Part shown: positions 4,941 to 22,390 of the stretch, in pieces
Position numbering within the stretch: the stretch's first letter is position 1
How the letters are laid out: each line of letters opens with the position of its first letter
Virus record (IMG/VR): IMGVR_UViG_3300019776_000309
Location: 1-30,246 of that record
DNA from: a virus
DNA length: 30,246 bases
Strand: one strand, 5' to 3'
Made by a program: the position numbers and the translations under genes
Notes under the pieces: model-generated
What the model was told of the DNA's origin: nothing
The model's input: the letters and a program-made list of their open reading frames with translations, nothing else
Databases searched by the model: none

Positions 4941-5206
4941 CCTACACCACCGAACAGATCGACGAACTGAAAGACCTCATCACGTCCCCCGGTTGGCGCT
5001 TGCTCTCGCAGTGGGCGACGAACGAGTACGGGCCGCTCGTGCTGTCCCGTGTGGCCAACGAAGAGGACGACACGAAGGCGCTGCTGCAACTGCGACAGGC
5101 GCGGGCGATTCAGGGCGCCGTCTCGGCGCTGCTGGAGTACCCCTCGCGCATCGTGTCCAAGTACACCGTGAACGACGCGCCGTCGCCGTCGAGAGGGGGG
5201 CTGTAA
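4937..5206 (+). CDS. small conserved-looking phage protein, function unknown
   Basis: An 89-residue protein starting MTYTTEQIDELKDLI, overlapping the previous gene by ATGA and the GroES-like gene by TAATG. It is mostly helical: a segment LLSQWATNEYGPLVLS is followed by the charged helix DDTKALLQLRQARAIQGAVSALLE. Short helical proteins of this type often lie between portal and scaffold in podovirus genomes, but I cannot name a function. The longer reading from 4238 is rejected because it runs through the methyltransferase. Confidence 0.7.
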   Translation: MTYTTEQIDELKDLITSPGWRLLSQWATNEYGPLVLSRVANEEDDTKALLQLRQARAIQGAVSALLEYPSRIVSKYTVNDAPSPSRGGL

Positions 5207-5469
5207 TGGGCTATCGACCGTTGGGAGATCGCCTCTTCGTGCAGCCTGACCCCGTCGTGACTGAGACGGCAGGCGGGCTGACGCTGGTCGAGGACTGGCC
5301 GCAGGAAACCTCCGGCACGGTGGTCAGTCTCGGAAGTTCCGTGCCTGACATTCAGGTCGGGGAGCGGGTGCTGTTCGCGCCGAGTGCGGGACAGGTCGTG
5401 GAAATCAATCAGGAGCGGCTCTTCATCCTGCGAGCGCGGGATGTGGTCGCGGTGGTGACGCATGAGTGA
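5206..5469 (+). CDS. GroES-like co-chaperonin
   Basis: An 87-residue protein matching the GroES fold along its length: RPLGDRLFV (4-12, compare the GroES start RPLxDRVxV), a shortened mobile loop ETAGGLTL (20-27, compare SAGGIVL, which binds GroEL), SGTVVSLG (36-43), VGERVLFAPSAG (51-62) and ERLFILRARDVVAVV (70-84). Co-chaperonins cap GroEL folding cages. Phages such as T4 (gp31) encode their own so that the host GroEL can fold the capsid protein. It lies between portal and scaffold genes, consistent with a role in head assembly. No GroEL is present in the window. It overlaps the scaffold gene by 8 nt. Confidence 0.85.
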   Translation: MGYRPLGDRLFVQPDPVVTETAGGLTLVEDWPQETSGTVVSLGSSVPDIQVGERVLFAPSAGQVVEINQERLFILRARDVVAVVTHE

Positions 5470-6325
5470 CGACGGACTGATGAATCTCGAAGACGACGCG
5501 CCGGTCACACCGGACCCCGCGCCGGTCCCCGAATCGCCCCAGGTGGAGGCGCAAGCCCCACCGGAGGAGGACGAACCCGAAGTCGTGGACATCGGCGGGC
5601 AGAAGGCCGTGCCGTACGCCGTCGTGAAGGAACTGCGCGAGAAGGTGCGCAATCTATCCGACAAGGCGGCGAAGGCCGACCAGTTGGAGGCGTGGCAGCG
5701 CGAGAACGAACCGGCGCTGCGCTTCCTCCAGAATAACAAGGATCTGCTGATCCAGCGGGCCGCGCCCGAACCGCAAGCGCCCGCCGCGCCCCAGCTTGAC
5801 CCGGACGCCCGCGAAGCCGCGCTGCTGATGGACTTCTACAAGCCGGACGGGACGCCCGACGACGAGCGCGGGGCTAAGTGGCTGGCGCTCCAGGAGAAGC
5901 GGGCCTCACGCATCGCGGACCAACATCTCGCCCCGATCCGGCAGCGGACGCAGCAGGAACAAGCCAGCGTGAACTACCAGATGGCGCGACAGGTGAAGGA
6001 CAGCAACGGCAACACGCCGTCTGAAGCGTCCCTGCGGGCGATCTGGAGCCAGATGCCGCCGGAACTGGTCGCCGACCAGAGTGTCGCGGGTGTCCTCGCC
6101 ACGTTGGCGCTTGGCCTCGACCAGTTGAACGGCGCGAAGAAGCCGACCATCGCAGCGCCACCCCCTGCGCTCGTCACGGAGTCGTCTGGAGGCCATCCGC
6201 GCACGCGTCCGACGCTGAGTGCTTTGGAAGAACGGATTGCCTCTGAGCGCGGCGTGAGCGCGACCAAGTGGCAGGAACAGACGCGCGGCTATACGCCCGG
6301 ACGGGCGATGTCGCTGGAGGACTAA
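5462..6325 (+). CDS. head scaffolding protein
   Basis: A 287-residue acidic protein. Residues 1-45 are rich in Asp, Glu, Pro and Ala (DDAPVTPDPAPVPES, PPEEDEPE), about 55-90 form a likely coiled coil (VVKELREKVRNLSDKAAK), and the rest is helical and charged with little hydrophobic core. This composition and the position between portal and capsid genes are typical of scaffolding proteins that template prohead assembly and are later lost. The start ATG overlaps the GroES-like gene. No catalytic motif is seen, so the assignment rests on composition and synteny. Confidence 0.7.
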   Translation: MSDDGLMNLEDDAPVTPDPAPVPESPQVEAQAPPEEDEPEVVDIGGQKAVPYAVVKELREKVRNLSDKAAKADQLEAWQRENEPALRFLQNNKDLLIQRAAPEPQAPAAPQLDPDAREAALLMDFYKPDGTPDDERGAKWLALQEKRASRIADQHLAPIRQRTQQEQASVNYQMARQVKDSNGNTPSEASLRAIWSQMPPELVADQSVAGVLATLALGLDQLNGAKKPTIAAPPPALVTESSGGHPRTRPTLSALEERIASERGVSATKWQEQTRGYTPGRAMSLED

Positions 6326-6868
6326 ATGGCACGTTCGAAGAAGGAACTCGACCCGACCGACGCGGCGACGACGCCGACCGTGACGCCCGACCGCATCAAG
6401 ATCTTCGAGCGCCGCCTCCAGAATCCCAACGGGCAGTCCACTGCGCCGATTGACCTCCGCGATCCGTCGCTGGTCTGCCGGTGGGTGAACGCGGCGATCT
6501 CGTCGGACAAGGTGTGGCGGGCCAAGAACGCAGGATGGGTACCAGTGCGACCGGAAGACCTTGCGGACCCCGACCAGGTGGGCGGCTACGTGAAGTCACC
6601 GGACGGCTTCGTGACGCGTGGTGACCGGGGGCAGGAGCTCCTGATGTCAATGCCGCGTGTGTGGCGCGACAAGATCGCCCTCGCCAAAGCTAAAGAGAAC
6701 ATGAAGAACATGGGCGACCCGACTGCGACGAAGAACGACGTCGTGGCGGCAGCGGCCGACAAACTCGGGGATCAGGCGGCAGACTACCTGAACCGCAAGC
6801 TGAACGTCGTGGGGGCCGTCCGTGACCAGCACGAGATGATCCACCGTGACGCCAACGTGGTCGAGTGA
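6326..6868 (+). CDS. phage protein of unknown function (head region)
   Basis: A 180-residue protein starting immediately after the scaffold stop. It has a Thr/Pro-rich N-terminus, then PIDLRDPSLVCRWVN (about 42-56), KVWRAKNAGWVPV (about 61-73) and a C-terminal basic helix (KIALAKAKENMKNM). Phage proteins with a comparable RWVN...GWVPV pattern lie near head genes, which suggests a virion or assembly role, but I know no tested function. It overlaps the nucleotidyltransferase start as GTGA, linking head genes and the glycan module in one operon. Confidence 0.65.
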   Translation: MARSKKELDPTDAATTPTVTPDRIKIFERRLQNPNGQSTAPIDLRDPSLVCRWVNAAISSDKVWRAKNAGWVPVRPEDLADPDQVGGYVKSPDGFVTRGDRGQELLMSMPRVWRDKIALAKAKENMKNMGDPTATKNDVVAAAADKLGDQAADYLNRKLNVVGAVRDQHEMIHRDANVVE

Positions 6869-7275
6869 TTCTCTGCTCGGGCGCGTTCGACGGGCTGCAT
6901 AGCGGGCACGTCGCGTACCTCAGGGCGGCGAAAGCACTGGACCCGTCCCAACCGCTGTACGTCGCGATTGCGCCTGATGCCTACATCGCGTCGGCCAAGC
7001 ATCGGCCGGCACGGTGGACGCAGGCGCAGCGGGCGGCAGTGGTGGACGCCTTGCGGGATGTCGCCGCCGTCGTCGTGCAGACGGAGCCGAGTGTCGCTGC
7101 CACCGTGCGGCAACTACGCCCGTCGATGCTCGTGAAAGGCATCGACTGGCTCGACCGCATCCCGCCCGATGTCGCGGCGGCGTGTGTCGAGAGCGGCACC
7201 GCGCTGGCCTTTGTCGATACCGACCACACCCATTGTTCGGAGGCGTTTTGGCAGGATCTCGGACGCTCCCTGTAG
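6865..7275 (+). CDS. HldE/TagD-type nucleotidyltransferase
   Basis: A 136-residue cytidylyltransferase-fold protein. GAFDGLHSGHVAYLRAAK (6-23) carries the HxGH nucleotide-binding motif (HSGH, 12-15), and MLVKGIDW (88-95) matches the LVKGGDY segment of the C-terminal domain of HldE (RfaE), which makes ADP-heptose. TagD-like CTP:glycerol-3-phosphate enzymes share the fold. It would activate a sugar phosphate or polyol phosphate with a nucleotide. The length fits a stand-alone domain. The GTG start overlaps the previous stop. It is the first gene of the glycan module, and its exact substrate and nucleotide cannot be read from sequence. Confidence 0.8.
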   Translation: MILCSGAFDGLHSGHVAYLRAAKALDPSQPLYVAIAPDAYIASAKHRPARWTQAQRAAVVDALRDVAAVVVQTEPSVAATVRQLRPSMLVKGIDWLDRIPPDVAAACVESGTALAFVDTDHTHCSEAFWQDLGRSL

Positions 7276-7874
7276 ACGCGCTGACGCACCTCGAAACGCT
7301 GATTCGCACCCAACAGCCCGCGACGACCGCATGGGTGCCAGTGACGGATTACACCGACGAGGGACGGCGGCGGATCGAAGGCAATAACCCGGCGCTGATT
7401 CTCGAACATCTGACGCAGGAAGGCGACGACGTGCTGGACTTTGGGTGCGGCCCCGCGCAGCACCTGGTGCGGCTCGTGAAGGAAGCCGACGACGACGGTA
7501 CGGTCACCATCTTCGGCTACGACCCGCAGATTCCGGCCAGCAAGCGGTTCATCGCGTACGACAGCACGTACGAACTGGTCATCTGCCGGGAAGTACTGGA
7601 ACACCTGACGCTCAAGGAACTGGTGCGCACGGTCCGGAAGCTCTGCGCGCTGTCCACGCGGTACGTCTACGTGACGACGCGGTTTGCCAAGTCGCCCGCG
7701 CACCTGTTGAGCGTGGACGAGTCGGACGACCTCGACCCGACTCATATCACGATGGTGACGCAGGACTTCCTGCGGTTGCTGTTTGTGCTGGAAGGCTTCA
7801 CGCGTCGGGCGGATCTGGAAGCGAAGATGGACTGGCAGCAGAAGGGCCGTTGTCTGGTGTACGAGCGCGTATGA
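7248..7874 (+). CDS. class I SAM-dependent methyltransferase (glycan module)
   Basis: About 208 residues if translation begins at the TTG at 7248, which has GGAGG 4-5 nt upstream. A CTG at 7281 or a GTG near 7330 are other possible starts, because no ATG is present before the conserved domain. Motif I is VLDFGCGPAQH (62-72), D92 in YDP follows strand 2, and ELVICREVLEHL (109-120) is motif IV. This is a typical sugar or small-molecule methyltransferase of the methyltransferase 12/23 type. It overlaps the nucleotidyltransferase by 28 nt and the next gene by ATGA. It probably methylates a sugar intermediate or glycan made by this module. Confidence 0.75.
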   Translation: MAGSRTLPVDALTHLETLIRTQQPATTAWVPVTDYTDEGRRRIEGNNPALILEHLTQEGDDVLDFGCGPAQHLVRLVKEADDDGTVTIFGYDPQIPASKRFIAYDSTYELVICREVLEHLTLKELVRTVRKLCALSTRYVYVTTRFAKSPAHLLSVDESDDLDPTHITMVTQDFLRLLFVLEGFTRRADLEAKMDWQQKGRCLVYERV

Positions 7875-8650
7875 CGAACGACGCCGTGTTCACCCACGCG
7901 CATCATCCCGATCTGTGCGGCGTGGCCAAGTTCTCGACGCAACTCGCACGGCGGCTCGGGGTATCAGTTCACTACGGCTTTGCCACGGTGAACGACTACG
8001 GGTATCCCCTTCTGAGCATCAAGGGAGCCGAACAGCCGTCGATGGCCATGCCGTGGCCTCCGTTCGACCTGTTCGCACACGATGCGACCGCGTCGGTGCT
8101 GGACCTGCTGCCGAAGGCGCGACGGGTGTACGCCGCCAACCGCGTCATTGCGCGGGCACTGCGAAGCGCGGGCCGGTCGGATGTCATCGAGGCATGGTGT
8201 CCGGCCATGCTCCAGGGCAACCCGACACGAGCGACCTACAACGTGTTGACGTTTGGTATGGCGCACAAACTCCGACTGGAGGCCTACCGCGATCTGAAGG
8301 CCACGCTCGACGCGGAACACGGCACCGACTACACCGTGTCTGTCTCGACGGCGGTGCATGAGGGGTCGCCGTGGGACGCCACCGCTGACGTGGCCGACAA
8401 GCTGCGCGGCATCTTCGGGGACCGGCTGCGCGTCTTGGGCTACCTCGCGGACGATGCGTTGGCGCGTGAACTCGACGCGTGTGACGCCGTGGCGCTGTAC
8501 TTCCCTGACGGGGTGCGCGAGAACAACACCACGTATTGGGCGGCAGTGGAGGCGCGGAAACGCATCTTCACGAACTACGACGCGGACAGCCCGACAGCAG
8601 CCCATCCGCATACCTGGGATCGACTCTTGGAGGTACTCCGTGCGGCGTGA
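7871..8650 (+). CDS. glycosyltransferase-like protein (GT-B type, short)
   Basis: A 259-residue protein. The N-terminus includes HHPDLCGVAKFSTQLARRLG (11-30), which resembles the GCGVAxYTxxLAxxL opening of GT4-type glycosyltransferases. The middle contains NVLTFGMAHKLRL, and the C-terminal third (RLRVLGYLADDALARELDACDAVALYFPDGVREN) resembles the donor-binding half, where a GYL-x4-L-x3-L-x-ACD-x3-L-P pattern and a late Glu are usual. It is shorter than the usual 350-400 residues, so part of the fold may be trimmed. It starts at an ATGA overlap and ends inside the NeuB start region. Confidence 0.65.
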   Translation: MTNDAVFTHAHHPDLCGVAKFSTQLARRLGVSVHYGFATVNDYGYPLLSIKGAEQPSMAMPWPPFDLFAHDATASVLDLLPKARRVYAANRVIARALRSAGRSDVIEAWCPAMLQGNPTRATYNVLTFGMAHKLRLEAYRDLKATLDAEHGTDYTVSVSTAVHEGSPWDATADVADKLRGIFGDRLRVLGYLADDALARELDACDAVALYFPDGVRENNTTYWAAVEARKRIFTNYDADSPTAAHPHTWDRLLEVLRAA

Positions 8651-9716
8651 ACTCACCATCGCAGGCCGGGTCATCAGCGACGACGCGCCCGCGTACGTCA
8701 TCGGAGAAATCGGACACAATCACGGTGGGTCCGTGGATCAGGCCGTCGCCCTCATCGCGGAGTGTGGGCGGGCGGGTGTGGACGCGGTCAAGTTCCAGAA
8801 GCGGACGAACAGCGCGATCTACACCCGGACGCTGCTCAATCAGCCGTACGACCACGAGCATTCCTATGGCCCGACCTACGGAGCGCACCGGGCCGCGCTG
8901 GAGTTCGACGTGGACGCCTTCCGGACGTGCTATCAGGCGGCGAAAACCGCCGGGATTGCGGCGTTCGCGACCGCATTTGACGAGTCAGCGGCCGACTTTC
9001 TGCTCCACGCGGGCAGTCCCGCGCTGAAGATCGCGTCGGGCGACCTCACGAATACCCCGCTTTTGGCCTACGTTGCGAAGATGGGGGTGCCGATCATCCT
9101 CTCGACGGGCGGCGGGACGCTGGAGGACATCGACCGGGCGGTAGACGTGGTCACAAAACACACGTCGGACCTCGCAATCCTGCACTGCACCGCCGCGTAC
9201 CCGGTTCACGACTTCGCGGAACTCAATCTGCGCGTGATTCCGGCGCTCCGCACACGGTATTCGGACTTCCAGATCGGCTGGAGTGGCCACGACAACGGGA
9301 TTGCCATGTCCGTGTTGGCCTATTCGCTCGGAGCGCGTCTCATCGAGAAGCATGTGACTCGGAATCGGGCGCTCAAGGGCACGGATCACGCGTTTTCGCT
9401 GGAGCCGAGTGGCCTCCGACGCATGGTGCGCGACTTGGAACGCGCCCACGTCGCGCTGGGCGACGGGATCAAGCGCGTCTACCCGTCTGAAGCGGCTCCG
9501 CTGCGCAAAATGCGCAAGTCACTGGTTGCCGCACGGCCGATGCAGGTCGGCCAGGTCATTCAGCGGGGCGATCTCCTACGGAAATCGCCCGATGGAGGCA
9601 TTCCGGCGTACCAACTCGACGCCGTGGTGGGCTTCACGCTCGTGAAACCGCTGGCTGAAGACGAACCACTCACGTACGAGCACCTCGAAGGGAGCCTCCA
9701 TGCTGCCGCAAGTTAA
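8640..9716 (+). CDS. neuB-like: NeuB-family nonulosonic acid (sialic acid-like) synthase
   Basis: A 358-residue protein, the normal NeuB length. The enzyme condenses phosphoenolpyruvate with a hexosamine such as ManNAc to make a nine-carbon sialic-type acid. Visible markers: VIGEIGHNHGG (20-30), DAVKFQKR (48-55), KIASGD (130-135), ILSTGGGTLEDI (153-164), ILHCTAAYP (180-188), WSGHDNG (214-220, replacing the usual GxSDHT), IEKHVT (235-240) and GTDHAFSLEP (247-256). A C-terminal SAF (antifreeze-like) domain spans about 293-350. The GTG start at 8640 follows TTGGAGG. The product could be sialic, legionaminic or pseudaminic acid. The sequence alone does not decide. Confidence 0.88.
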   Translation: MRRELTIAGRVISDDAPAYVIGEIGHNHGGSVDQAVALIAECGRAGVDAVKFQKRTNSAIYTRTLLNQPYDHEHSYGPTYGAHRAALEFDVDAFRTCYQAAKTAGIAAFATAFDESAADFLLHAGSPALKIASGDLTNTPLLAYVAKMGVPIILSTGGGTLEDIDRAVDVVTKHTSDLAILHCTAAYPVHDFAELNLRVIPALRTRYSDFQIGWSGHDNGIAMSVLAYSLGARLIEKHVTRNRALKGTDHAFSLEPSGLRRMVRDLERAHVALGDGIKRVYPSEAAPLRKMRKSLVAARPMQVGQVIQRGDLLRKSPDGGIPAYQLDAVVGFTLVKPLAEDEPLTYEHLEGSLHAAAS

Positions 9717-10098
9717 GGTCCAACTCCCGCGGGACATGGGCGACCGTACATGGGGACAGGAGTTGCTCGTCATCGATACGGAGAAGTACATCGGGAAGGT
9801 GATGCACATGCGGGCCGGGGGCGCAGGCGGCTTGCAGGCGCATGTCGAGAAGGACGAAGCCAGCTATCTCGTGTCGGGCCTTGCGTGGGTCTACACGGAC
9901 ACGGGCGATGGGACGCTGACGCGGTTCCAGTGGCATCCCGGTTCGGCTATTCACATCCCGCCGGGAGCCGTCCACAAGGTCGAAGCCATCGAGGACTGCG
10001 TCATCTTCGAGGCGTCCACGCCGCACTTCAACGACCGCATCCGACTCGAAGAGCAGTACGGACGCACGGATACGGGTGGACTCCCGACCACCAAGTGA
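9700..10098 (+). CDS. cupin-domain sugar-associated protein
   Basis: A 132-residue single-domain cupin. It begins RTWGQELLVI with EKYIGKVMHM, continues with the first cupin motif around GLQAHVEKDEASYLVSG (44-60; H48 and E53 present, with Gln at the usual first His) and has a second motif PGSAIHIPPGAVHKVEA (80-96; H92). It ends with FEASTPHFNDRIRLEEQYGR. Small cupins of this style are often found next to neuB and sugar-nucleotide genes, and the fold is related to mannose-6-phosphate isomerase. It may be an epimerase, isomerase or binding protein for the nonulosonic acid precursor. It overlaps NeuB by 17 nt. Confidence 0.75.
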   Translation: MLPQVKVQLPRDMGDRTWGQELLVIDTEKYIGKVMHMRAGGAGGLQAHVEKDEASYLVSGLAWVYTDTGDGTLTRFQWHPGSAIHIPPGAVHKVEAIEDCVIFEASTPHFNDRIRLEEQYGRTDTGGLPTTK

Positions 10099-10268
10099 GG
10101 TGCCTGCTGGTCGTGGCGCTCGTCTGTGCGGGCTGCGACTCGCCTACGGCTCCAAGTGCGGCCGCGCCTAGTCCAAGTGCGGCCGCGCCTAGTTCGGAAC
10201 GGTCGGCTTCGTGCCGTGAGCCGTGGACGCTGGTCGCAACGGAGGCGCGTCTCTGCTCGGGCCAGTAG
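10095..10268 (+). CDS. small lipoprotein
   Basis: A 57-residue protein whose GTG start overlaps the cupin stop (GTGA). Residues 1-13 form a short hydrophobic signal (MRCLLVVALVCAG) ending at Cys14 in VCAGC, a lipobox-like site with an unusual Cys at -3. Asp15 at +2 would favour inner-membrane retention under the rule known for enterobacteria. Then follows an Ala/Pro/Ser linker made of two exact 7-residue repeats (PSAAAPS) and a short C-terminal part with two Cys (SCREPW, RLCSGQ). It overlaps the start of the NeuA-like gene. Superinfection exclusion is one possible role, but nothing proves it. Confidence 0.55.
   Translation: MRCLLVVALVCAGCDSPTAPSAAAPSPSAAAPSSERSASCREPWTLVATEARLCSGQ
10151..10192 (+). 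repeat. exact 21-bp tandem duplication inside the lipoprotein gene
   Basis: Two head-to-tail identical 21-bp units, each starting TCCAAGTGCGG and ending CGCGCCTAG. The unit is a whole number of codons, so the protein keeps its frame and gains PSAAAPS twice. This is a likely site of recent slippage-driven length change in the linker. Confidence 0.85.
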
Positions 10269-11017
10269 TCGCGTTCATCCCGGCGCGAGGTGGGAGTAAG
10301 CGTGTGCCCCGTAAGAACCTCCACATACTGGGAGGTCATCCGCTGCTGGCCTACAGTATCGCGGCGGCAAAGGACGCGGGGCTGTTTGATGCGGTCTACG
10401 TCAGCACGGAAGACGCCGAGATTGCGAACGTGGCGCGGTACTACGGGGCGCAGATCATCGACCGACCGCCGCACTTCGCGCTCGACACGTCGCCGGATAT
10501 TCAGTGGCTCGGCCATGCGATTGACGCCATTGGGAAACCGGCGTATCTCCGGTGGGCGCTGCTCAGGCCGACCTCGCCGTTCCGCACCGCCGACACGATC
10601 CGGCGAGCGTGGCGCACGTTCCTCTCCCACGACTGTGCCGACAGCATCCGGGCCGTCGAGCCGGTGACGCAGCACCCCGGCAAGATGTGGACATGTGCAG
10701 GTGACGGGCACCCGATTCGTCCACTGCTCGACCAGAAGCTGTCAGACGGCACCCCGTGGCACTCGTCCCCGACGCAGAGCCTGCCGCGCTACTACGTACA
10801 GAATGCCTCGCTCGAAATGGGCTGGGGGGCCAACGTGTGGGAATACCACACCCTGCACGGCCGCAAAGCCGCCCCGTTCTTCACGACGGGCTATGAAGGA
10901 TTCGACATCAACCATGCCCGAGACATCCGAGAAGCCGACTACCTCCTCGCCAGCGGGGAAGCGACACTTCCGCCCGTATCTGTGGAACCAGTGGCGGCGC
11001 ACCTATGGGGCGTCTGA
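10223..11017 (+). CDS. neuA-like: NeuA-family CMP-nonulosonic acid synthetase
   Basis: Up to 264 residues. The hallmark is VVAFIPARGGSKRVPRKN (15-32), the CTP-binding loop of CMP-sialic acid and CMP-KDO synthetases, followed by GHPLLAYSIAAAKDAG and VYVSTEDAEIANVARYYGA, then LRPTSPFR at about 112-119, all in family order. The enzyme joins CMP to a sialic-type acid, activating it for transfer. The GTG at 10223 lies inside the lipoprotein gene. A CTG at 10253 with GGAGG about 7 nt upstream is an alternative start closer to the conserved N-terminus. Together with NeuB it completes synthesis and activation of a nonulosonic acid. Confidence 0.85.
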   Translation: MDAGRNGGASLLGPVVAFIPARGGSKRVPRKNLHILGGHPLLAYSIAAAKDAGLFDAVYVSTEDAEIANVARYYGAQIIDRPPHFALDTSPDIQWLGHAIDAIGKPAYLRWALLRPTSPFRTADTIRRAWRTFLSHDCADSIRAVEPVTQHPGKMWTCAGDGHPIRPLLDQKLSDGTPWHSSPTQSLPRYYVQNASLEMGWGANVWEYHTLHGRKAAPFFTTGYEGFDINHARDIREADYLLASGEATLPPVSVEPVAAHLWGV

Positions 11018-11942
11018 CGCGCCGATCTTCGTCGGGCCGTTCCTGGGGGAAGTGGGCTTCGAGGCGCTGTACTGGCTCCCGTTTCTTGCGCAACTGCGTC
11101 ACGATCTCGGCATCGAGCGCGACCGGCTGATTCCCATCACCAGGGGAGGCGCGGCCGTCTGGTACGACGCGCCGAAGGGGATCGAACTCTTCGACATGCG
11201 GACGCCGCAGGACATCCGCGTCGAGAACCGTCTGCGCCATGCGGAAACCGGGCAATTGAAGCAGACGCATGTGCGGCCGTTTGACCGTCAGGTGTACCGC
11301 GACGTAGCCGACACGCTGGGCATCACGTCGTATCAGACGCTCCACCCGGCATGGATGTATCAGACGCTGCGCCCGTTTTGGGAGGCTGAGACTGGCCTGA
11401 CGTGGCTGCAATCACGGGTGCGGTTCGCCCCGATGCCTGAATTGAACATCGACGGCGTGACGCTGCCGGAAGACTTCGTGGCCGTGCGGTTCTACTTCCG
11501 GCCGACCTTCCAGCGGACGCCGCTCAACGTGGACTTTGCGACCCACTGCATTCGGATGATCGCCAAGACACAGCCCGTCGTCGTGCTGAACAATCCGCAC
11601 ATGGTGGACGATCACTTGGACTTTCTGCCGAAGGATGAGCCAAACGTCACCGTGCTCTCCGATCTCGTGGAGTTGACCCCGGCCAATAACTTGGCCGTCC
11701 AAAGTGCGGTGCTCCAGCGGGCGATGGGCTACGCAGGCACGTACGGCGGGATGGCGCAGCTTGCGCTCCGGATGGGCAAGCCCTGCATCGCGTTGTACGA
11801 CGAGTGGCACGGCACGGCCCTTCCGCATCGGCATTTGTCCGACGCATTGGCGCTGTCACTCGGTACCACGTTCACCACGTTGCGCGTGGGCGATCTGCCC
11901 TTGTTGCAATCGGTGCTTCCCACGGTGACGCTCACAAAATAA
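10914..11942 (+). CDS. GT-B-like putative glycosyltransferase
   Basis: A 342-residue protein. It begins with a basic stretch and then VGPFLGEVGFEALYWLPFLAQL. The C-terminal part, LVELTPANNLAVQSAVLQRA, leads to AGTYGGMAQLALRMGKPCIALYDE, which resembles the GGxxxLAxxxGxPxIAL nucleotide-sugar site of GT-B enzymes such as heptosyltransferases (GT9) and O-fucosyltransferase-like proteins. It would be a natural enzyme to use the activated sugar made upstream, but no acceptor can be inferred. The ATG at 10914 overlaps the NeuA-like gene by 104 nt. I saw no later in-frame start before the conserved region. GAAGGA lies about 12 nt upstream. Confidence 0.6.
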   Translation: MPETSEKPTTSSPAGKRHFRPYLWNQWRRTYGASDAPIFVGPFLGEVGFEALYWLPFLAQLRHDLGIERDRLIPITRGGAAVWYDAPKGIELFDMRTPQDIRVENRLRHAETGQLKQTHVRPFDRQVYRDVADTLGITSYQTLHPAWMYQTLRPFWEAETGLTWLQSRVRFAPMPELNIDGVTLPEDFVAVRFYFRPTFQRTPLNVDFATHCIRMIAKTQPVVVLNNPHMVDDHLDFLPKDEPNVTVLSDLVELTPANNLAVQSAVLQRAMGYAGTYGGMAQLALRMGKPCIALYDEWHGTALPHRHLSDALALSLGTTFTTLRVGDLPLLQSVLPTVTLTK

Positions 11943-11956
11943 CCGCGATAGATCGC
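11936..11956 (+). promoter_or_regulatory. 21-bp repeated element, candidate phage promoter or operator (copy 2)
   Basis: Identical over 21 bp to the copy at 422-442, including the GCGAT-AG-ATCGC inverted repeat. It again overlaps the stop codon of the preceding gene and stands at the head of an intergenic region, here before the decoration and capsid genes. Matching position in front of the two main structural gene blocks supports a role in late transcription. Confidence 0.55.
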
Positions 11957-12031
11957 TTGCGCGCCCCGTGGTGACCTGCGATTCTGTGACCGTCGCTGGG
12001 CTTCTCTCTCGCACCTCCACTCATGGGGCTG

Positions 12032-12047
12032 TCTCTCTTCGGAGAGA
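12032..12047 (+). other. perfect RNA hairpin with UUCG tetraloop
   Basis: TCTCTC, TTCG, GAGAGA: six perfect pairs closed by the very stable C(UUCG)G loop. It is not followed by a T run, so it is not a standard terminator. In a leader between a promoter-like element and the capsid genes it may stabilise the mRNA 5' region or mark a processing site. Confidence 0.6.
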
Positions 12048-12072
12048 TGGCCTACATGGGACCAGCAACACG

Positions 12073-12098
12073 GTGCCGCCGACCACAACGGGCGTTTC
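12073..12098 (+). repeat. 26-bp leader repeat, copy 1
   Basis: Starts GTGCCGCCGACC and ends AACGGGCGTTTC. It matches copy 2 (12151-12176) at 23 of 26 positions. The 78-nt spacing is a multiple of three, so both copies are read in the same frame. A looser third copy (GCCGCCGAC, then CGGGCGTATCG) lies at 12181-12207. Confidence 0.65.
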
Positions 12099-12150
12099 TT
12101 GGCGTGAGGCTGACATCTGAGCCACGCGCCTCGTATCGGACGAGATGACT

Positions 12151-12176
12151 GTGCCGCCGACAGCAACGGGCGTATC
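12151..12176 (+). repeat. 26-bp leader repeat, copy 2
   Basis: Starts GTGCCGCCGACA and ends AACGGGCGTATC, with three differences from copy 1. It is preceded by ATGACT, so a 16-codon open frame (12145-12195) could run through it, but no convincing ribosome site was found. Confidence 0.65.
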
Positions 12177-12298
12177 GCGGGCCGCCGACGCGTAATCGGG
12201 CGTATCGGGATGACTGCTGTGGTCAGTTCGCAGCCATCCGGCACCTTCGCTGACCTCCACTTGTTCATTCGCACGCCTCGCGTGCAGAAGGTCATCGC

Positions 12299-12847
12299 AT
12301 GGCAGATTACGCCCTGAATTCTGGCGATTTCGTGCGTCCGCACAAGTCGCCCTGGGGTGCGTTCCCGACGCGCTCCATGAAGCTCTCGACCGGCATCTCG
12401 TCGAACACCGTCCGCGTCGGCCAGCTGGTTGGCCTCGACACGGCCAGCACGTCGTACACCGACTGCATCGTCCCGATTGCGCAGTCGAGCAACTCGCTGA
12501 ACCCCGGCGCGGGCACCATCGTCGGCTTCGCGGCTGAGAACAGCACGGCCAACGGCGCACAGACCGCGCAGGGCACCGTCATTCCGGTGTACGAAGCGAA
12601 CCCGCTCGTCGAGTTCCGCGCCCGGACCCGTTTCGGCCTGCTGAACTCCACCATCGTGGGTCAGCCGAAGGAACTCCACCGCGATTCCACGCTGGGAATC
12701 GATGTCGTCAACCTTGCGACCTCGTCGCTCGCCACGCCTGCGAAGTGTGTGATCGTCACGAGCCTCATCGACAACGCTGGAGACAGCGGCGGTGCGGTCA
12801 CGTTCCGGTTCAACACGTCGTCGGGTTACCTGGCGTTCTTCAAGTAA
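12299..12847 (+). CDS. putative capsid decoration protein
   Basis: A 182-residue protein directly before the major capsid gene, the usual place for head decoration or stabilisation proteins. Features are an N-terminal DYALNSGDFVRPHKSPWGAF, an internal beta-rich region (VRVGQLVGLDT, AGTIVGFAAEN, GTVIPVYEANPLVEFRA) and a C-terminal GGAVTFRFNTSSGYLAFF. The short-strand pattern with Gly and Ala turns suits a small beta-barrel bound to capsomers. No signal or membrane segment is seen. GAAGG lies about 7 nt before the ATG. The assignment rests on position and fold character. Confidence 0.6.
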   Translation: MADYALNSGDFVRPHKSPWGAFPTRSMKLSTGISSNTVRVGQLVGLDTASTSYTDCIVPIAQSSNSLNPGAGTIVGFAAENSTANGAQTAQGTVIPVYEANPLVEFRARTRFGLLNSTIVGQPKELHRDSTLGIDVVNLATSSLATPAKCVIVTSLIDNAGDSGGAVTFRFNTSSGYLAFFK

Positions 12848-12861
12848 GCGAGGGCTGACAC

Positions 12862-13782
12862 ATGGCACAGGTACGCGGCACGTTTGACGCCCTCTACGAC
12901 AACATCGACAAGTCGCTGATGGGCATCATGAAGGGCCAGCTCAAGGAGCTGCCCAAGATCTACAGCGAGTACTACAACATCAAGTCCTCGGATCGAAAGT
13001 TCGAGCGCGTGGTGACCTACGTACCCTTCGGGGACACGGCGGCGAAGGCTGAAGGTGATACGTTCGCGATGGATCAGATCCGTCAGGGCTACACCAAGGA
13101 TTTCACGCACACCGAAAACGGCCTCGGCTTCGAGGTGACGCAGACCGCGATGGAAGACGACGCGGAGAACCTGCTCTCCCGTGCGGGCGAGTGGCTCGCG
13201 TTCTCGGCCCGCTACGTCGAGGAAGGCCGTGCGGCGAACCCGCTGAACAACGGCTTCACCACGGAAACCACCCCGGACGGTGTGTCGCTGTTCAACACCG
13301 CGCATGTCCTGCGATCCGGTGGGACGGCGAAGAATCGCCCGTCCACCGACGCCGACCTCTCGGCGCAGTCGCTGGCGCAGGCGATGATCGACCTCCAGAC
13401 CGACCAGAAGGACGAAGCGGGCCATCTCGCCGCGCCGGTCACGTCGTGGAATCTCGTGATTCCGCCCGCGCTGGAGTTCCTCGCGGATCGTCTCATCAAC
13501 TCGACCGGCCTGCCGGGGTCGAGCGACAACGACCGCAACCCGCTGAAGTCGCGTCGTACGTGGAACATCATCGTGAATCCGCGTCTCACGGACCCGGACG
13601 CGTGGTTCCTGCTGGCGTCGAACAAGGCGCAGCACGGCCTGACGTTCTACCGCCGCGTCCCGATCACGCTGGAACCGTCCACCAAGGACGCCCGCACGGG
13701 GAACACGATCGTGAAGGTGCGTCACCGCTTCTCGGTCGGCGCGTGGACCTGGGTTGGCGCGTACGGCTCGGCCGGAGCCTAG
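12862..13782 (+). CDS. major capsid protein (HK97 fold, Mu gpT-like)
   Basis: A 306-residue protein without an obvious N-terminal delta domain. It resembles the Mu gpT-type major head subunit in size and motifs: KIYSEYYNIKSSDRKFE, a long spine-helix region (ENLLSRAGEWLAFSARYVEE, about 96-115), DGVSLFNTAHVL (LFxxAH is typical of this group, about 138-149), TSWNLVIPPALEFLADRL, RTWNIIVNPRLTDPDAWFL and a C-terminal beta segment VRHRFSVGAWTWVGAYG. It forms the icosahedral shell. It follows the decoration gene by 14 nt and is followed by a strong hairpin, a common arrangement for the most highly expressed phage gene. Confidence 0.85.
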   Translation: MAQVRGTFDALYDNIDKSLMGIMKGQLKELPKIYSEYYNIKSSDRKFERVVTYVPFGDTAAKAEGDTFAMDQIRQGYTKDFTHTENGLGFEVTQTAMEDDAENLLSRAGEWLAFSARYVEEGRAANPLNNGFTTETTPDGVSLFNTAHVLRSGGTAKNRPSTDADLSAQSLAQAMIDLQTDQKDEAGHLAAPVTSWNLVIPPALEFLADRLINSTGLPGSSDNDRNPLKSRRTWNIIVNPRLTDPDAWFLLASNKAQHGLTFYRRVPITLEPSTKDARTGNTIVKVRHRFSVGAWTWVGAYGSAGA

Positions 13783-17774: not shown

Positions 17775-18308
17775 TCATGGCTGAATGTGTCGCCATACGC
17801 GGTTAGCCGCTACTCTCTGAACAACTTTGCGTGGAAGATTCAGCGCCCGCATGATCTCGCATTGCCGCTTGCCTTCCATCAGCATTGTTCGGATGGCCAA
17901 CACGTTCGCGTCGTTCAACGGGCCACGTTTTGCAGCCCAGTGATTAGAGCCGCGTGGCATTGCTTCAGGATGTTCGCTTGCTGGTCCAAGCACAAGCCTA
18001 TTGCGGCGACCTTTGCGCATAGAGTCGTGGAAATTGTCAGCGACCGTGCCAAGAAACAAATGACTCGGATTACAGCATGGCGGGTTGTCGCAACGGTGGC
18101 AGACCTGACCGTTGTTAACAATGGTCCATCCTTGGTGAGCCAGAAGCCACGATACTACGTGCGCTCCCATGTTTTTGCGCCGAGCATGGACGTAGAACGC
18201 TCCGTATCCAAACGGAAACCGTCCAGCAGTCCAGTTCCAGCACTCGTCATGGCCACGCTTGTCGACTTTGGACCAGAACCGCTTAGCGGTAATTGGGTCA
18301 ATGTTCAT
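17775..18308 (-). CDS. HNH homing endonuclease
   Basis: A 177-residue protein on the opposite strand with the ATG at 18308. It has the CWNWTAGRFPFGYGAF segment (23-38), H50 in MGAHVVSWLLAHQG (47-60) and the zinc/HNH core VCHRCDNPPCCNPSHLFLGT (69-88), followed by N92. This is the phage HNH pattern (HxCDNPxCxNPxHL). The C-terminal part (about 131-175) is helix-turn-helix-like and may give DNA specificity. It lies between the fibre and adaptor genes, 18 nt from the fibre stop, opposite to every other gene around it except the one at 28354. By eye it has clearly lower GC. It is most likely a free-standing homing gene. Confidence 0.88.
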   Translation of the reverse strand: MNIDPITAKRFWSKVDKRGHDECWNWTAGRFPFGYGAFYVHARRKNMGAHVVSWLLAHQGWTIVNNGQVCHRCDNPPCCNPSHLFLGTVADNFHDSMRKGRRNRLVLGPASEHPEAMPRGSNHWAAKRGPLNDANVLAIRTMLMEGKRQCEIMRALNLPRKVVQRVAANRVWRHIQP

Positions 18309-18327
18309 AGCTATAGCATAGCATAAG

Positions 18328-19077
18328 ATGGCCATTTTCTCATCTCTGTACGGCACACGCCTCGATCGCGAACTGGGCAGCGCGGACTCGACGCAACTCT
18401 TCACGACGGCCCGGCGCAAGTCGGCTATCAACGAAGGGATGCAGCAGTTCGCAGATCTGGCCGAGTGCTATCGGCGCACCTCCACTCTCGCGTGGACGAG
18501 TGGCACGGAAGCGGTGACGCTGGGGTCGTCGGACTTTGTACGCCCGGTCGCAGACGGGATCGCCGTGCGCTACACCGACAGCGCGGGGCTGGTCACGATC
18601 CAGCGCGGCGACGATCTACCCCGTGTGGACCGGGCGTGGATTGCGCGGTACCGCCCCGACTGGCTGGATAGCACGATCAGCACAGGTACCCTACGTCTGC
18701 CGGAAGCGCACTACCTCGATAGCGAAGGGGGCGCGTACCGGCTGGGACTCGTCCCGGCTCCGTCTGCAGGGTCTACGACTGCCTCGCTCGCTGTGCAAGT
18801 GCCGTACATCGCACGGCCTCGGGCGCTGTCGAGCAACACGGACGAGCCGATGACGGACAGCAACGGCGTGACGCGCGACGACCTGCGGATGTACCACCAA
18901 GCGTTCGTCCACTACGGGGCGGCGCAGTTGGAGAAGTACCGCCGCGACGTGGAAGCGTCGGGCCTGCAAATGCAGGCATTCATGGGCTACGTCGAACGCT
19001 ACAAAGCGCAGATGAAGCGCAAGGGCGGGCAGGCCATTGCGATGGCGACGGCGTACTTCCGGAGAACCGGCCGGTGA
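18328..19077 (+). CDS. head-tail adaptor-like protein
   Basis: A 249-residue protein. The N-terminus reads MAIFSSLYGTRLDRELGSADSTQLFTTARRKSAINEGMQQFADLAECY, a helical module like that of phage adaptor proteins that dock under the portal (tail completion or gp10-like family). The middle has beta strands (EAVTLGSSDFVRPVADGIAVRY), and the C-terminal helix (HYGAAQLEKYRRDVEASGLQMQAFMGYVERYKAQMKRK) is also usual for these proteins. It probably forms the ring between portal and tail nozzle. It is the first rightward gene after the homing endonuclease insertion and overlaps the zinc-finger gene by GTGA. Confidence 0.65.
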   Translation: MAIFSSLYGTRLDRELGSADSTQLFTTARRKSAINEGMQQFADLAECYRRTSTLAWTSGTEAVTLGSSDFVRPVADGIAVRYTDSAGLVTIQRGDDLPRVDRAWIARYRPDWLDSTISTGTLRLPEAHYLDSEGGAYRLGLVPAPSAGSTTASLAVQVPYIARPRALSSNTDEPMTDSNGVTRDDLRMYHQAFVHYGAAQLEKYRRDVEASGLQMQAFMGYVERYKAQMKRKGGQAIAMATAYFRRTGR

Positions 19078-19229
19078 TTCGCTTGACCTTCAAGTGCGGG
19101 CATCGTCAGCCGTGGGAGGACGGGCAGGAACCCGTCTGTCGGACCTGCGGGGAACGGCAGATTGCGCGGGCGAGTGCGCCCCCCCCTCGAATTCGTGGCG
19201 CGGCAACAGGGCCGCATGTGCAGGGTTAG
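19074..19229 (+). CDS. small zinc-finger protein
   Basis: A 51-residue protein with a GTG start overlapping the adaptor stop (GTGA). It carries FKCGHRQPW near the start and VCRTCGERQI, giving a Cys/His set (CxH plus CxxC) typical of short phage zinc-ribbon proteins that begin with K/CGH. The C-terminus is Pro/Ala/Gly-rich and probably flexible. The role is unknown. Small metal-binding proteins of this kind between adaptor and tail genes recur in phages, but no function is proven. Confidence 0.55.
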   Translation: MIRLTFKCGHRQPWEDGQEPVCRTCGERQIARASAPPPRIRGAATGPHVQG

Positions 19230-19232
19230 AGC

Positions 19233-19670
19233 ATGGATACCTACGGACTCTCGTTTTCGCCTACGGCCTCGCTCGACAAGAGCAATAAGCCGACTGACCC
19301 GAACGCCAACGTGCAGGAGGCGATCCGCACACTGGCCCTCCGCATCCCGAAGGTGACGGGCGCGAAAGGCTTTGCCCCGGATGCCCTGATGAGCGCACAG
19401 GGCGCGTCAGCGGCCCCACAGGGCGGATTGGGGCTGGATCGGCTCCTCGCCATGCTGTTCGGGAATCAGACGCAGCAGGGACGCCCGCAGGCCGCGCCGA
19501 TGGCGGGTTTGGGCGGTAACGCGGCCCCGGCTCCGCGTGTGGGTGGACTGGGGAACGAGACGCCCGCGCAGGGGCTGACGATGGACGCTCCGCAGGCGCC
19601 CTCCTCGCCCATGCCGGAACCCATGCTGCCGCGCACCTACAACAAGCCGATTGATCCGGGCGGCTACTAG
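19233..19670 (+). CDS. virion-region protein, function unknown (low-complexity C-terminus)
   Basis: A 145-residue protein. Residues 1-45 (MDTYGLSFSPTASLDKSNKP, then NVQEAIRTLALRIPKV) look folded, and the rest is Gly/Pro/Ala/Met-rich low complexity (GGLGLDRLLAMLFGNQTQQG, MPEPMLPR) ending PIDPGGY. This composition suits a flexible virion component or tail-assembly factor. It starts 3 nt after the zinc-finger stop and is followed 6 nt later by the large nozzle gene. No known family is recognised. Confidence 0.6.
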   Translation: MDTYGLSFSPTASLDKSNKPTDPNANVQEAIRTLALRIPKVTGAKGFAPDALMSAQGASAAPQGGLGLDRLLAMLFGNQTQQGRPQAAPMAGLGGNAAPAPRVGGLGNETPAQGLTMDAPQAPSSPMPEPMLPRTYNKPIDPGGY

Positions 19671-19676
19671 AGACGG

Positions 19677-21599
19677 ATGGCGAAGTCGCAGGGGACGCGG
19701 GCCGCGAAAACCGCACGGGTGTACCAGATGCTGCCGGTCATTGGACCGTCAGCCGGTCTGGATCTGCGCACGGCTCCGACGCTGATGCAGGCGGATCGGG
19801 CGCGTACGCTCGTGAACTTCTCGCTGGCGGAACCGGGGGCACTCGTTGTCCGTTCGGGCTTTCAGGCGTTCTCGACGGGAACACTCGGTAGCGGCCGGAT
19901 GCAGGGCGCAAAGCGCGTCTACCTGAACACCGCGATTCCGAGTCAGGCGTCCACGGTGTTCACGCTGGCCGCGTGGAACGGCGGGGTCTACAACGCGACG
20001 GACTCGGGCGGGTGGCTCTCGACCACGCCGCAACTGTCGGGGCTGTCCACCAACGAGATTTATTTCGTCAACGACCGCGATCTGGTCGTGGCGATGGACG
20101 GCCAATCGACCGCGCTGCGCAAGTCCACCAACGGCGTGAACTGGACGCGGTTCGGGATTGCGCCGGGGTCCACGAGTCCGACCGTCTCGTCGCTCACCAC
20201 GGGCGCGATGTCGAGCGGGGAGTACGCGTTCACGTTCACGTACAAGGACCGCGATCAGGCGTACGAATCGAACGCGCCGACGGAGTCCACGATCACGCTC
20301 ACCGGGTCGAGTGGCAGCGTCACCGTCGTGGTACCGAACAGCACCGACGCGCAGGTCGATGCGATTGTCGTCTACGCCCGGAAGGTGTCGGCCGGGGAAA
20401 CCGTCGCCCGGAAGGTGTCGAGCCTTGCGCAGTCCGGGGGCGTGAGTTCCACGCTCGTTGTGACCTCGACGACCTGGACGACCAACGACGAAGTCCCGAC
20501 CGACCACACGCTCCCGCCTGCATTGGCGTTCGGCGTGGTGTGGAAGAACCGGTGGTGGGCGCGTGACGCCACAGTGACAAACCGGATTCGGTTTACGCAG
20601 ATTTTCGAGCCGCAGTCGTGGCCGGGGACGTACTACATCGACATCCCCTTTGAGCAGGGCGATGAGGTGCGGGCGCTCTACCCGCTGGGCGACACACTGA
20701 TTGTCTTCGGGAACACCAAGATTTTCATCATCCTCGGCCAGTCGTCGCTGGACTTTGAGGTCCGTCCGTCGCTTGGCTCAGAAGATGGGGCACTCGGCCC
20801 GCGCAGTGTCGCGGCGATTGAGAACGGCGTGGCCCATGCGGGCGCGTCCGGCGTCTACGTGTTCGATGGGACCAGCGACAAGCTGCTGTCCTTCGACATT
20901 GAACCGGGCTGGCTGGATCTAGTCAGTAACGTGTCGGCTGGGGCATTGGGGCGTGTGTCGCTGGTCTATCACAAGCGGCTGAAGGAACTGCGCATTGCGG
21001 TCCCGCGCCGGTATCCCTCGGGGGCCGTGGGGGAATGGATTCTGGACCTGAACCAGACCCGCGCGAAACAGAACCCCGCATGGACCTCGACCGACCGGGA
21101 CATCGCCGGATACATCCCGTGGGATGGCCCCGAAGCGGCGACGGGCGACCGTGGCCGGATGCTCTCGTGGCCGACCACCACCGCACGGCTGATGGAAGAG
21201 GGCGTCGGGACAAGCGCGAATAGCTCGAATCTGACCGGCGAGTACGAAGGACCAGGGCTGACGCTCGGCCCCTTCCGCGCTCGCTACATCGACCTCCGGG
21301 GGGAGTACGAGCCGCATACCGGATCGTTCGGTGTGGAACCCGTGGTGGACGGTGTGACGTTCGGGTCGCAGTCAGTCCCCATGACGCCCGGTGGCGCGGT
21401 CTACGGCACGGCCACGTACGGGACGTCGGTCTATGCGGGCGGCATCACGCGACGGCAGTTCTACAAGGAACTGCCCCTCGAAGCGGAAGGCCGGTCGTTC
21501 GTGCTGAAGGCGGTCTATACCGGACAGGAACGCTTCCGATTGTTCAGTTATCACGTTGGGCTGGTCCCTGAGACGGCCTCGCGGAGCTTCACGGAGTAA
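19677..21599 (+). CDS. tail nozzle / tubular protein (T7 gp12-like)
   Basis: A 640-residue beta-rich protein. Typical features of podoviral nozzle or stabilisation proteins include an early GLDLRTAPTLMQADRARTLVNF (about 25-46), fibronectin-like beta domains (SGEYAFTFTYKDRDQAYESNAPT) and a propeller-like centre (RIRFTQIFEPQSWPGTYYIDI, DEVRALYPLGDTLIVFGNTKIFII, VAHAGASGVYVFDGTSDKLLSFDIE). The LxxFGxxxxxI and YxFDG blades are recurrent in this group. The protein would form the distal tail tube. Its presence, with no tape-measure protein, supports a podovirus. Confidence 0.75.
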   Translation: MAKSQGTRAAKTARVYQMLPVIGPSAGLDLRTAPTLMQADRARTLVNFSLAEPGALVVRSGFQAFSTGTLGSGRMQGAKRVYLNTAIPSQASTVFTLAAWNGGVYNATDSGGWLSTTPQLSGLSTNEIYFVNDRDLVVAMDGQSTALRKSTNGVNWTRFGIAPGSTSPTVSSLTTGAMSSGEYAFTFTYKDRDQAYESNAPTESTITLTGSSGSVTVVVPNSTDAQVDAIVVYARKVSAGETVARKVSSLAQSGGVSSTLVVTSTTWTTNDEVPTDHTLPPALAFGVVWKNRWWARDATVTNRIRFTQIFEPQSWPGTYYIDIPFEQGDEVRALYPLGDTLIVFGNTKIFIILGQSSLDFEVRPSLGSEDGALGPRSVAAIENGVAHAGASGVYVFDGTSDKLLSFDIEPGWLDLVSNVSAGALGRVSLVYHKRLKELRIAVPRRYPSGAVGEWILDLNQTRAKQNPAWTSTDRDIAGYIPWDGPEAATGDRGRMLSWPTTTARLMEEGVGTSANSSNLTGEYEGPGLTLGPFRARYIDLRGEYEPHTGSFGVEPVVDGVTFGSQSVPMTPGGAVYGTATYGTSVYAGGITRRQFYKELPLEAEGRSFVLKAVYTGQERFRLFSYHVGLVPETASRSFTE

Positions 21600-21601
21600 C
21601 A

Positions 21602-22390
21602 GTGGCGAGCTACCCCAATTCGGTCAAAACCTTCGGGACCAAGAGTGCAGGCGACACGATCCAGCCCGCGCACGTCAACGATCTGCAAGACGAAGTCGCG
21701 GCCATCGAGGACGGCCTGCTGAACGGCACCGCGCCGATCAACTCGTCGCGCATCACCGCGCCGTCGATGCAGATCGGCAACGCGACCATTTCGTCGCTGA
21801 CGGTCACGGCGTTCACCTTCCCGGCGAATTCGACCTTTACCAATGTGAACGTCACGGGCGGTTCGACGCTGACCACGTTGAACGCGACGGGTGGGTCCAC
21901 GCTGGCGACGTTGAATGTGACGGGCATGTCCAGCCTCGCCGATTTGCAGGTCGCGGCGGCGGCGCCCGCCGTGCGGGTGTCGAACAGCGCCAATATCGCT
22001 GTCGGTGACGCCAGCACGACACGCCTCACCTTCAACACGGATGTGTTTGCCTCAACCTCGGGGATGCACTCGACGGGCACGAATCCGGGTCGGCTGATTG
22101 CCACCTCGTCAGGCATTTACTGCATTACAGGTACGGTGACGTGGGCGCCGAACTCCAGTGGCTTGCGGCAGGCGCGCATTCTCATCAACGGGTCCTCGTT
22201 TGCCACGATTCAGAGCGTGCCGTCCGCCAGTGGGACGTTCAACACGGATCAGAACATCACCACGATCTATCGCTTTGCGAGTTCCGGCAGTTATGCGGAA
22301 CTGGAGGTGTACCAGAACAGCGGGGGGTCGTTGAACATCTTGGCGGCTGGGGACCACTCGCCGACGTTTGCGATGACGAAAATCCGCTAA
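21602..22390 (+). CDS. tail fibre-like protein with C1q/TNF-like C-terminal domain
   Basis: A 262-residue protein starting at a GTG 2 nt after the nozzle stop. Residues 1-40 include GDTIQPAHVNDLQDEVAAIE, a helical attachment segment common in phage fibre proteins. About 55-120 hold a fibrous beta region with three imperfect units (NVTGGSTLTTL, NATGGSTLATL, NVTGMSSLADL). About 125-262 look like a jelly-roll trimeric head (TRLTFNTDVFASTSGMHSTG, GIYCITGTVTWAPN, SYAELEVYQNSGGSLNI). It may bind host or other surface sugars. Its TAA overlaps the next ATG. Confidence 0.65.
   Translation: MASYPNSVKTFGTKSAGDTIQPAHVNDLQDEVAAIEDGLLNGTAPINSSRITAPSMQIGNATISSLTVTAFTFPANSTFTNVNVTGGSTLTTLNATGGSTLATLNVTGMSSLADLQVAAAAPAVRVSNSANIAVGDASTTRLTFNTDVFASTSGMHSTGTNPGRLIATSSGIYCITGTVTWAPNSSGLRQARILINGSSFATIQSVPSASGTFNTDQNITTIYRFASSGSYAELEVYQNSGGSLNILAAGDHSPTFAMTKIR

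Follow-up and report, generated by a model that had tools for sequence, protein, structure and literature searches.

Why would a tailed phage carry genes for the synthesis and activation of an ulosonic acid between its scaffold and capsid genes, which sugar would they make, and where would it go? These questions are raised by the IMG/VR virus record IMGVR_UViG_3300019776_000309, a stretch of 30,246 bases (called the window here, always at its full length) that is probably a fragment of a larger virus genome, with a gene module at positions 6865-11942 that includes NeuB and NeuA. The answer to which we give about an even chance is that the module is a phage-owned glycan pathway derived from a bacterial surface-glycan cluster, and that its cytidine monophosphate (CMP)-ulosonate glycan is added to a virion protein. 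The phages carrying it form an uncultured, soil-type group. A phage module for ulosonate or nonulosonic-acid synthesis was not found in the literature searched, which was without most subscription journals and all preprints.

NeuB, NeuA and the predicted sugar

The genes of the module all lie on the + strand, with adjacent genes overlapping by 4-104 nt (NT, nucleotidyltransferase; MT, methyltransferase; GT, glycosyltransferase; ORF, open reading frame):

6865-7275, + strand: NT, cytidylyltransferase-like protein (CTP_transf_like) of 136 aa; Pfam PF01467
about 7248-7874, + strand: MT, class I S-adenosylmethionine methyltransferase; TTG start, position of the start uncertain; Pfam PF13489
7871-8650, + strand: GT1, conserved, resembling GT-B/GT4 proteins by eye; no family matches
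8640-9716, + strand: NeuB, of the 3-deoxy-2-ulosonate synthase family, SAF domain at the C-terminus; GTG start
9700-10098, + strand: cupin-fold protein, sugar isomerase/epimerase-like; Cupin_2 below cut-off, phrog_7851
10095-10268, + strand: 57-aa lipoprotein-like ORF with a 21-bp tandem repeat inside
10223-11017, + strand: NeuA, CMP-ulosonate cytidylyltransferase; Pfam PF02348
10914-11942, + strand: GT2, GT-B-fold glycosyltransferase, GT9/heptosyltransferase-like by predicted structure

The initial annotation had seen here a synthesis-and-activation module with NeuB, including its SAF domain, and NeuA inside a phage head gene cluster, and this was borne out by Pfam matches and catalytic residues alike. 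NeuB belongs to its namesake family (Pfam NeuB, E = 2.3e-70; SAF, E = 3.4e-9) and, in the numbering of Neisseria meningitidis NeuB used throughout, retains E25, K53, T110, K129, H215, E234, H236, and D247, the active-site residues being invariant across related records. NeuA has the features of a CMP-ulosonate synthetase, matching Pfam CTP_transf_3 (PF02348, 1.2e-17) and, among Protein Data Bank (PDB) sequences, CMP-N-acetylneuraminic acid (CMP-NeuNAc) synthetases (6.5e-23), with its nucleotide-binding motif ARxGSKR..KN conserved. Since the phosphoenolpyruvate (PEP)- and metal-binding residues of NeuB are intact and NeuA possesses this motif, the product is likely to be a CMP-activated 3-deoxy-2-ulosonic acid, as judged from sequence. 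All eight ORFs lie where they had been described, and seven are conserved; the lipoprotein-like ORF, matchless in related phages, was rejected as a module member and, given its tandem repeat as well, probably stands outside the module.

The initial annotation had also proposed a sialic-type product made from a hexosamine supplied by the host or an outside gene, and here the evidence turned the other way. True sialic, legionaminic or pseudaminic acid synthesis from an N-acetylhexosamine of the host would fit the NeuB and NeuA family membership, the PseF family as top NCBIfam match of NeuA, if below its cut-off, and a DegT aminotransferase (Pfam) that takes the place of MT in two related loci (L005 and L045). 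However, NeuB and NeuA score below the NCBIfam cut-offs of the sialic acid synthase, PseI, and PseF families (109.6 bits for NeuA with TIGR03584), and in the NeuB tree the sequences of phage modules and bacterial clusters form one clade with 98% support in the Shimodaira-Hasegawa-like approximate likelihood ratio test (SH-aLRT), outside of which fall both the PseI references (100%) and the NeuC/LegB-linked NeuBs (95%). Within the active site of the phage NeuBs, position 134, in N. meningitidis a Glu that helps to position N-acetylmannosamine (ManNAc), is D, G, S, or A, and position 184, an Asn there, is Ala. E134 is retained in PseI, LegI, and NeuC-linked references, while N184 is variable among the PseI, LegI, and NeuB references, so that the weight lies on E134 and Arg314 and N184 is weak evidence alone. 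As for Arg314, the SAF domain is kept in only three of the 20 clade NeuBs read (window, L050, and L042) and absent from the others read, including those of L103 and L104; residue 314 is Ser wherever the domain is kept and mostly Ser, with Val in two, in the bacterial sister NeuBs, whereas all seven reference NeuBs (PseI, LegI, NeuB) have Arg. Arg314 is the sole residue of the SAF domain to extend into the active site, where it positions the N-acetyl group of ManNAc, and Asn184 has a role in ManNAc positioning by N. meningitidis NeuB (PMC6795526). NeuC (PF02350), noted as missing from the window, was found neither there, the window being a fragment, nor in any of the 34 related records searched, with the positive control detected in 11 genomes; nor do the bacterial sister clusters examined carry NeuC or PseBCHG genes, their NeuB type being linked to genes for a short-chain dehydrogenase/reductase (SDR), an aldehyde dehydrogenase, and a transketolase. 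A sialic-type product is therefore improbable.

Rather, NeuB is likely a PEP-dependent ulosonate synthase with an acceptor other than an N-acetylhexosamine, which is a conservative reading. Because the ManNAc-contact residues are lost, a non-N-acetyl aldose suggests itself as substrate, and with such a substrate the absence of NeuC may not matter. The product would probably be neither N-acetylneuraminic acid (Neu5Ac) nor legionaminic or pseudaminic acid, rather a deaminated or otherwise unusual relative. With the pathways for those acids (NeuBCA, LegBCFGI, and PseBCFGHI) the module shares the NeuB and NeuA core, that is, PEP condensation followed by CMP activation, but it differs from them in having no NeuC, PseG, or LegG. 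An uncharacterised NeuB subfamily with altered substrate-binding residues, present in many Acidobacteria, is thereby indicated.

Among the other module proteins, NT matches Pfam CTP_transf_like (PF01467) at 3.8e-8. Its description as HldE-like held as far as a cytidylyltransferase-like protein is concerned, but HldE is one of several equal options: rfaE_dom_II comes first in NCBIfam with 62.2 bits against a cut-off of 181.5 bits, and the PDB sequence matches, led by 5x3d, 5x9q, and 3elb, are mixed cytidylyltransferases in which phosphonate/ethanolamine-phosphate cytidylyltransferase ranks above HldE-type entries. MT (Pfam Methyltransf_23, PF13489, 1.2e-9) has homologues of 41-54% identity in both phages and bacterial clusters, and NT and MT are fused into one ORF in L103, L104, L111, L116, L119, and L196. 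The cupin matches Cupin_2 under the cut-off (1.3e-5) and phrog_7851 at 2.6e-15; an SDR stands in its place in L116. GT1 and GT2 have no matches in Pfam, PHROG, or NCBIfam, and their annotation as glycosyltransferases fared differently. GT1, in which R-x-NNT and FGM-HK motifs are invariant in a 15-member alignment, is GT-like by eye only, while the AlphaFold2 model of GT2 (predicted local distance difference test score, pLDDT, 89.6) has a GT-B fold closest to GT9 (Foldseek against PDB: 3tov, GT9, E = 2.8e-6; also WaaC and TibC). TibC is a protein-modifying heptosyltransferase. No relative of GT2 was found among 50,697 deposited phage records; NeuB has three relatives among deposited phages.

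In another phage group, NeuB has about 620 aa (L008, 9992-11866; L009, L010, L011, L014, and L018), and that of L008 is fused to a xylose-isomerase-like triosephosphate isomerase (TIM) barrel (PF01261). L020 and L010 have several NeuB-like genes each, three within a stretch of one of these phage contigs and two in the other, which suggests phages making more than one ulosonic acid.

Relatives of the module in phages and bacteria

NT, MT (or DegT), GT1, NeuB, cupin, NeuA, and GT2 were found together by tblastn in at least 12 further viral contigs whose capsid proteins are 70-93% identical to that of the window, mostly in the same interval; in L024 the cupin match is missing. The module proteins are mostly 35-65% identical where the capsid is 70-93% identical, and purifying selection acts on each module gene tested (dN/dS, the ratio of nonsynonymous to synonymous substitution rates, 0.04-0.39). 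Searches of whole records revealed NeuB in all 13 long records of the capsid clade where the region was covered, and also in two outgroups, G014 and G028; in the 18 other long relatives it was not found. As the same gene set recurs in nearly the same order in at least 12 other contigs and in bacterial chromosomes, chance is excluded, and an assembly chimera was likewise rejected given the conserved neighbours across many independent contigs: the module is real and old.

Its place in the genome varies. In G028 (L090), NT-MT-GT1-NeuB-cupin-NeuA are on the other strand and at the far end of the genome, while GT2 lies 5' of the terminase, and in G014 (L116) NT-MT, GT1, NeuB, SDR, NeuA, transketolase, and GT2 lie away from the head genes. 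A head-operon location in every NeuB-bearing phage, which we had considered, is thus rejected; the location is a trait of the window's clade. Genomes of the L036/L040/L111 type have a rearranged segment 3' of GT2, the module of the L036 record itself lying elsewhere with the rearrangement after GT2, and in the fragments L027, L029, and L031 of the window's clade the decoration gene is preceded by early genes, as in L036.

A scan of genome contigs recovered GT2 relatives in bacteria, mostly Acidobacteria with some Tistlia, Gemmatales, and Solirubrobacterales, and many of these contigs have GT2, NT, MT, GT1, NeuB, and NeuA clustered. The acidobacterial locus L119 combines a GT2 domain, an NT-MT fusion, GT1, NeuB with SAF, SDR, aldehyde dehydrogenase, NeuA, and transketolase; the phage layout closest to it is that of L116. 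The Acidobacterial/Tistlia cluster (L119-L126, L186), for which no name was found in the literature, shares with the phage module the same genes in near-same order and NeuBs of 50-56% identity that fall together in the 98% clade. By comparison, the phage versions are without transketolase and aldehyde dehydrogenase (L116 keeps SDR and transketolase), have gained the cupin, often have lost SAF, and reside in a phage genome. We infer that the bacterial cluster is likely the source of the phage module. Of the 25 cluster-bearing bacterial genomes searched for prophages that might point to a host, two contained capsid relatives, distant ones only, as did one of 396 Acidobacteriota genomes.

L132, titled as a Bifidobacterium breve metagenome-assembled genome, contains two GT2 homologues resembling those of acidobacterial loci, and the record is probably mislabelled or contaminated. 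On a Methylomagnum plasmid (L195, 3895-9507), the N and C halves of a transketolase, a class III aminotransferase, an SDR, a SAF-less NeuB, and a haloacid dehalogenase (HAD) hydrolase apparently form a related uncharacterised ulosonate pathway.

Destination of the sugar

Two further genes bear on whether the sugar would end up on the virion:

21602-22390, + strand: virion-type protein, Ser/Thr-rich (27%); shortly 5' of the GT42-like gene
22744-23574, + strand: GT42-like (CstII sialyltransferase-like) protein of the tail region, by predicted fold

The 22744-23574 protein has no family match and one weak relative among deposited phages. The top seven PDB fold matches of its AlphaFold2 model (pLDDT 84.4) are all CstII or CstI, GT42 sialyltransferases of Campylobacter jejuni (E from 2e-4 to 2e-2), the best with E 2.1e-4, probability 1.00, and a template modelling (TM) score of only 0.46, which is moderate; an R-x-[FI]-T-S stretch aligns with CstII by eye. 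From its modelled CstII-like fold, it is a candidate CMP-sugar transferase. The gene occurs in 15 family records (whole-record searches), namely in every NeuB-bearing family record but the 30-kb fragment G004, and in addition in the fragment G001 and in G027, and 17 of the 18 NeuB-less long relatives are also without it (Fisher p 4e-8). Wherever mapped in the family, it lies in the tail/structural region, even with the synthesis module at another place in the genome (G014, G028). NeuB-SDR-NeuA-FkbM methyltransferase (9998-13159) also separate the terminase from the portal in an unrelated HK97-type phage (L006), whose GT42-like gene (18044-19789) directly follows the capsid gene and is seemingly split by an intein-like insert. 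The Ser/Thr-rich 21602-22390 protein is a candidate acceptor of the glycan. The Ser/Thr-rich proteins encoded 3' of the capsid gene (at 13847, 14328, 14720, and 15242) were dropped as acceptors by co-occurrence, as the module-bearing outgroups L090 and L116/L204 are without them.

In the pathway proposed, NeuB would condense a non-N-acetyl aldose with PEP and NeuA would activate the ulosonate with CMP, while NT and MT would supply a further nucleotide-linked building block carrying a methyl group, or else methylate one, and the cupin (SDR in one relative) would adjust the sugar. GT1 and GT2 would build the glycan, the GT42-like protein would transfer the CMP-ulosonate, and the glycan would be put on a virion protein, tail-fibre-like or capsid, in the cytoplasm, there to shield the particle or alter adsorption. 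A virion target is favoured because the GT42-like gene lies in the structural region near the Ser/Thr-rich protein and because membrane-spanning segments were found in none of the module proteins.

Several observations weigh against this pathway. At the TM score given, the GT42 resemblance is one of fold level, and when the family alignment of the 22744-23574 protein was compared by eye with CstII, no conserved His was recognised at the place of the catalytic His188. L082 (G027) has the GT42-like gene, NT, MT, GT1, and GT2 but no NeuB, and on the capsid tree the NeuB-GT42 association comes down to only one or two independent changes, so that the Fisher value overstates the link and was given no weight. 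The module stands outside the head operon in G014 and G028, in the latter close to a Cro/CI-type gene (by eye) of the early region, a position compatible with lysogenic conversion, and at least one relative is temperate: the long relative G003 has a Pfam-recognised tyrosine integrase (L199, 18186-19783) and, by eye, a Cro/CI-like repressor, so that some clade members are temperate.

The placement in G028 and the integrase lead to an explanation that we regard as possible, if rather doubtful, in which the CMP-ulosonate glycan is made for the host surface (lipopolysaccharide, capsule, or exopolysaccharide) and changes receptors or excludes competitors in infected cells or lysogens. The bacterial source clusters do sit amid surface-glycan-type glycosyltransferase genes, and pelagimyophage glycosyltransferases were interpreted in this manner (PMC7029224); on the other hand, the module of the window's clade lies within a packaging and head gene run, a late lytic context, no flippase, polymerase, or membrane-anchored transferase was found, and the GT42-like transferase is placed among virion genes. 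That the sugar feeds glycosyltransferases acting on phage DNA with hypermodified bases is very improbable. Phage glycosyltransferases do modify DNA, as cited in PMC12619734, but a pyrimidine-hydroxymethylating enzyme was not recognised in the window or the G003 stretches read (non-window genes mostly by eye), and by fold the glycosyltransferases match GT9 and GT42 rather than DNA glucosyltransferases. Virion or surface glycosylation, as the initial annotation had suggested, is still the most sensible use of the module; added to that annotation are the GT42-like gene, the bacterial source cluster, the clade-wide conservation, and the module outside the head operon in two outgroups.

With the virion as target, a fuller account can be put forward tentatively: uncultured tailed phages may have captured an undescribed transketolase/SDR-linked, non-N-acetyl NeuB pathway for a new CMP-ulosonate, with GT42-type transfer to their own virion, and L006 may have paired NeuB-NeuA with a GT42-like gene independently. 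For the mycobacteriophages Che8, Corndog, and Myrna it is established that structural proteins of the virion are glycosylated by the phages' own glycosyltransferases (PMC12363180 and PMC12619734, both citing Freeman et al. 2023); those reports deal with glycosyltransferases, whereas here, going by the genes, donor-sugar synthesis and CMP activation would be phage-encoded as well. Phages are also known to encode O-acetyltransferases for the nonulosonic acids of Acinetobacter capsules (PMC6586298); these alter a sugar that the host itself makes and carries on its capsule, while here the synthesis is phage-encoded. If the pathway holds, phages carry a whole donor-sugar pathway, beyond a glycosyltransferase, and have kept it over a long divergence. 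The module would then be a system for asking why soil phages, which meet no vertebrate immunity, glycosylate their particles, possible benefits being protection against predators or proteases, a change in adsorption, and evasion of bacterial outer-surface defences. Together, the NeuB subfamily and the phage GT42-like family would then promise a nonulosonic-type sugar and a sialyltransferase-like enzyme that are both new.

Flanking genes and a repeat

The + strand of the window reads large terminase (PHROG, 1.3e-34), portal, methyltransferase, GroES-like, scaffold-like, conserved gene, module, decoration-like, capsid, and tail genes, with the following neighbours of the module:

5206-5469, + strand: GroES-like co-chaperonin (by eye), 3' of the portal region and 5' of the scaffold gene
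5462-6325, + strand: scaffold-like gene, 5' of the module
6326-6868, + strand: conserved gene without assigned role, between the scaffold-like gene and the module
from 12299, + strand: decoration-like gene, 3' of the module
from 12862, + strand: major capsid gene (Phage_capsid_4, 8e-18), 3' of the decoration-like gene

Relatives have divergent counterparts of the GroES-like gene. An exact 21-bp repeat with a palindromic core, AAAATAACCGCGATAGATCGC, is found at 422-442, just 5' of the packaging genes, and at 11936-11956, over the GT2 stop codon, and it also follows GT2 in L021 and L022; the pair may mark the borders of a transcription unit of packaging genes, scaffold, and module.

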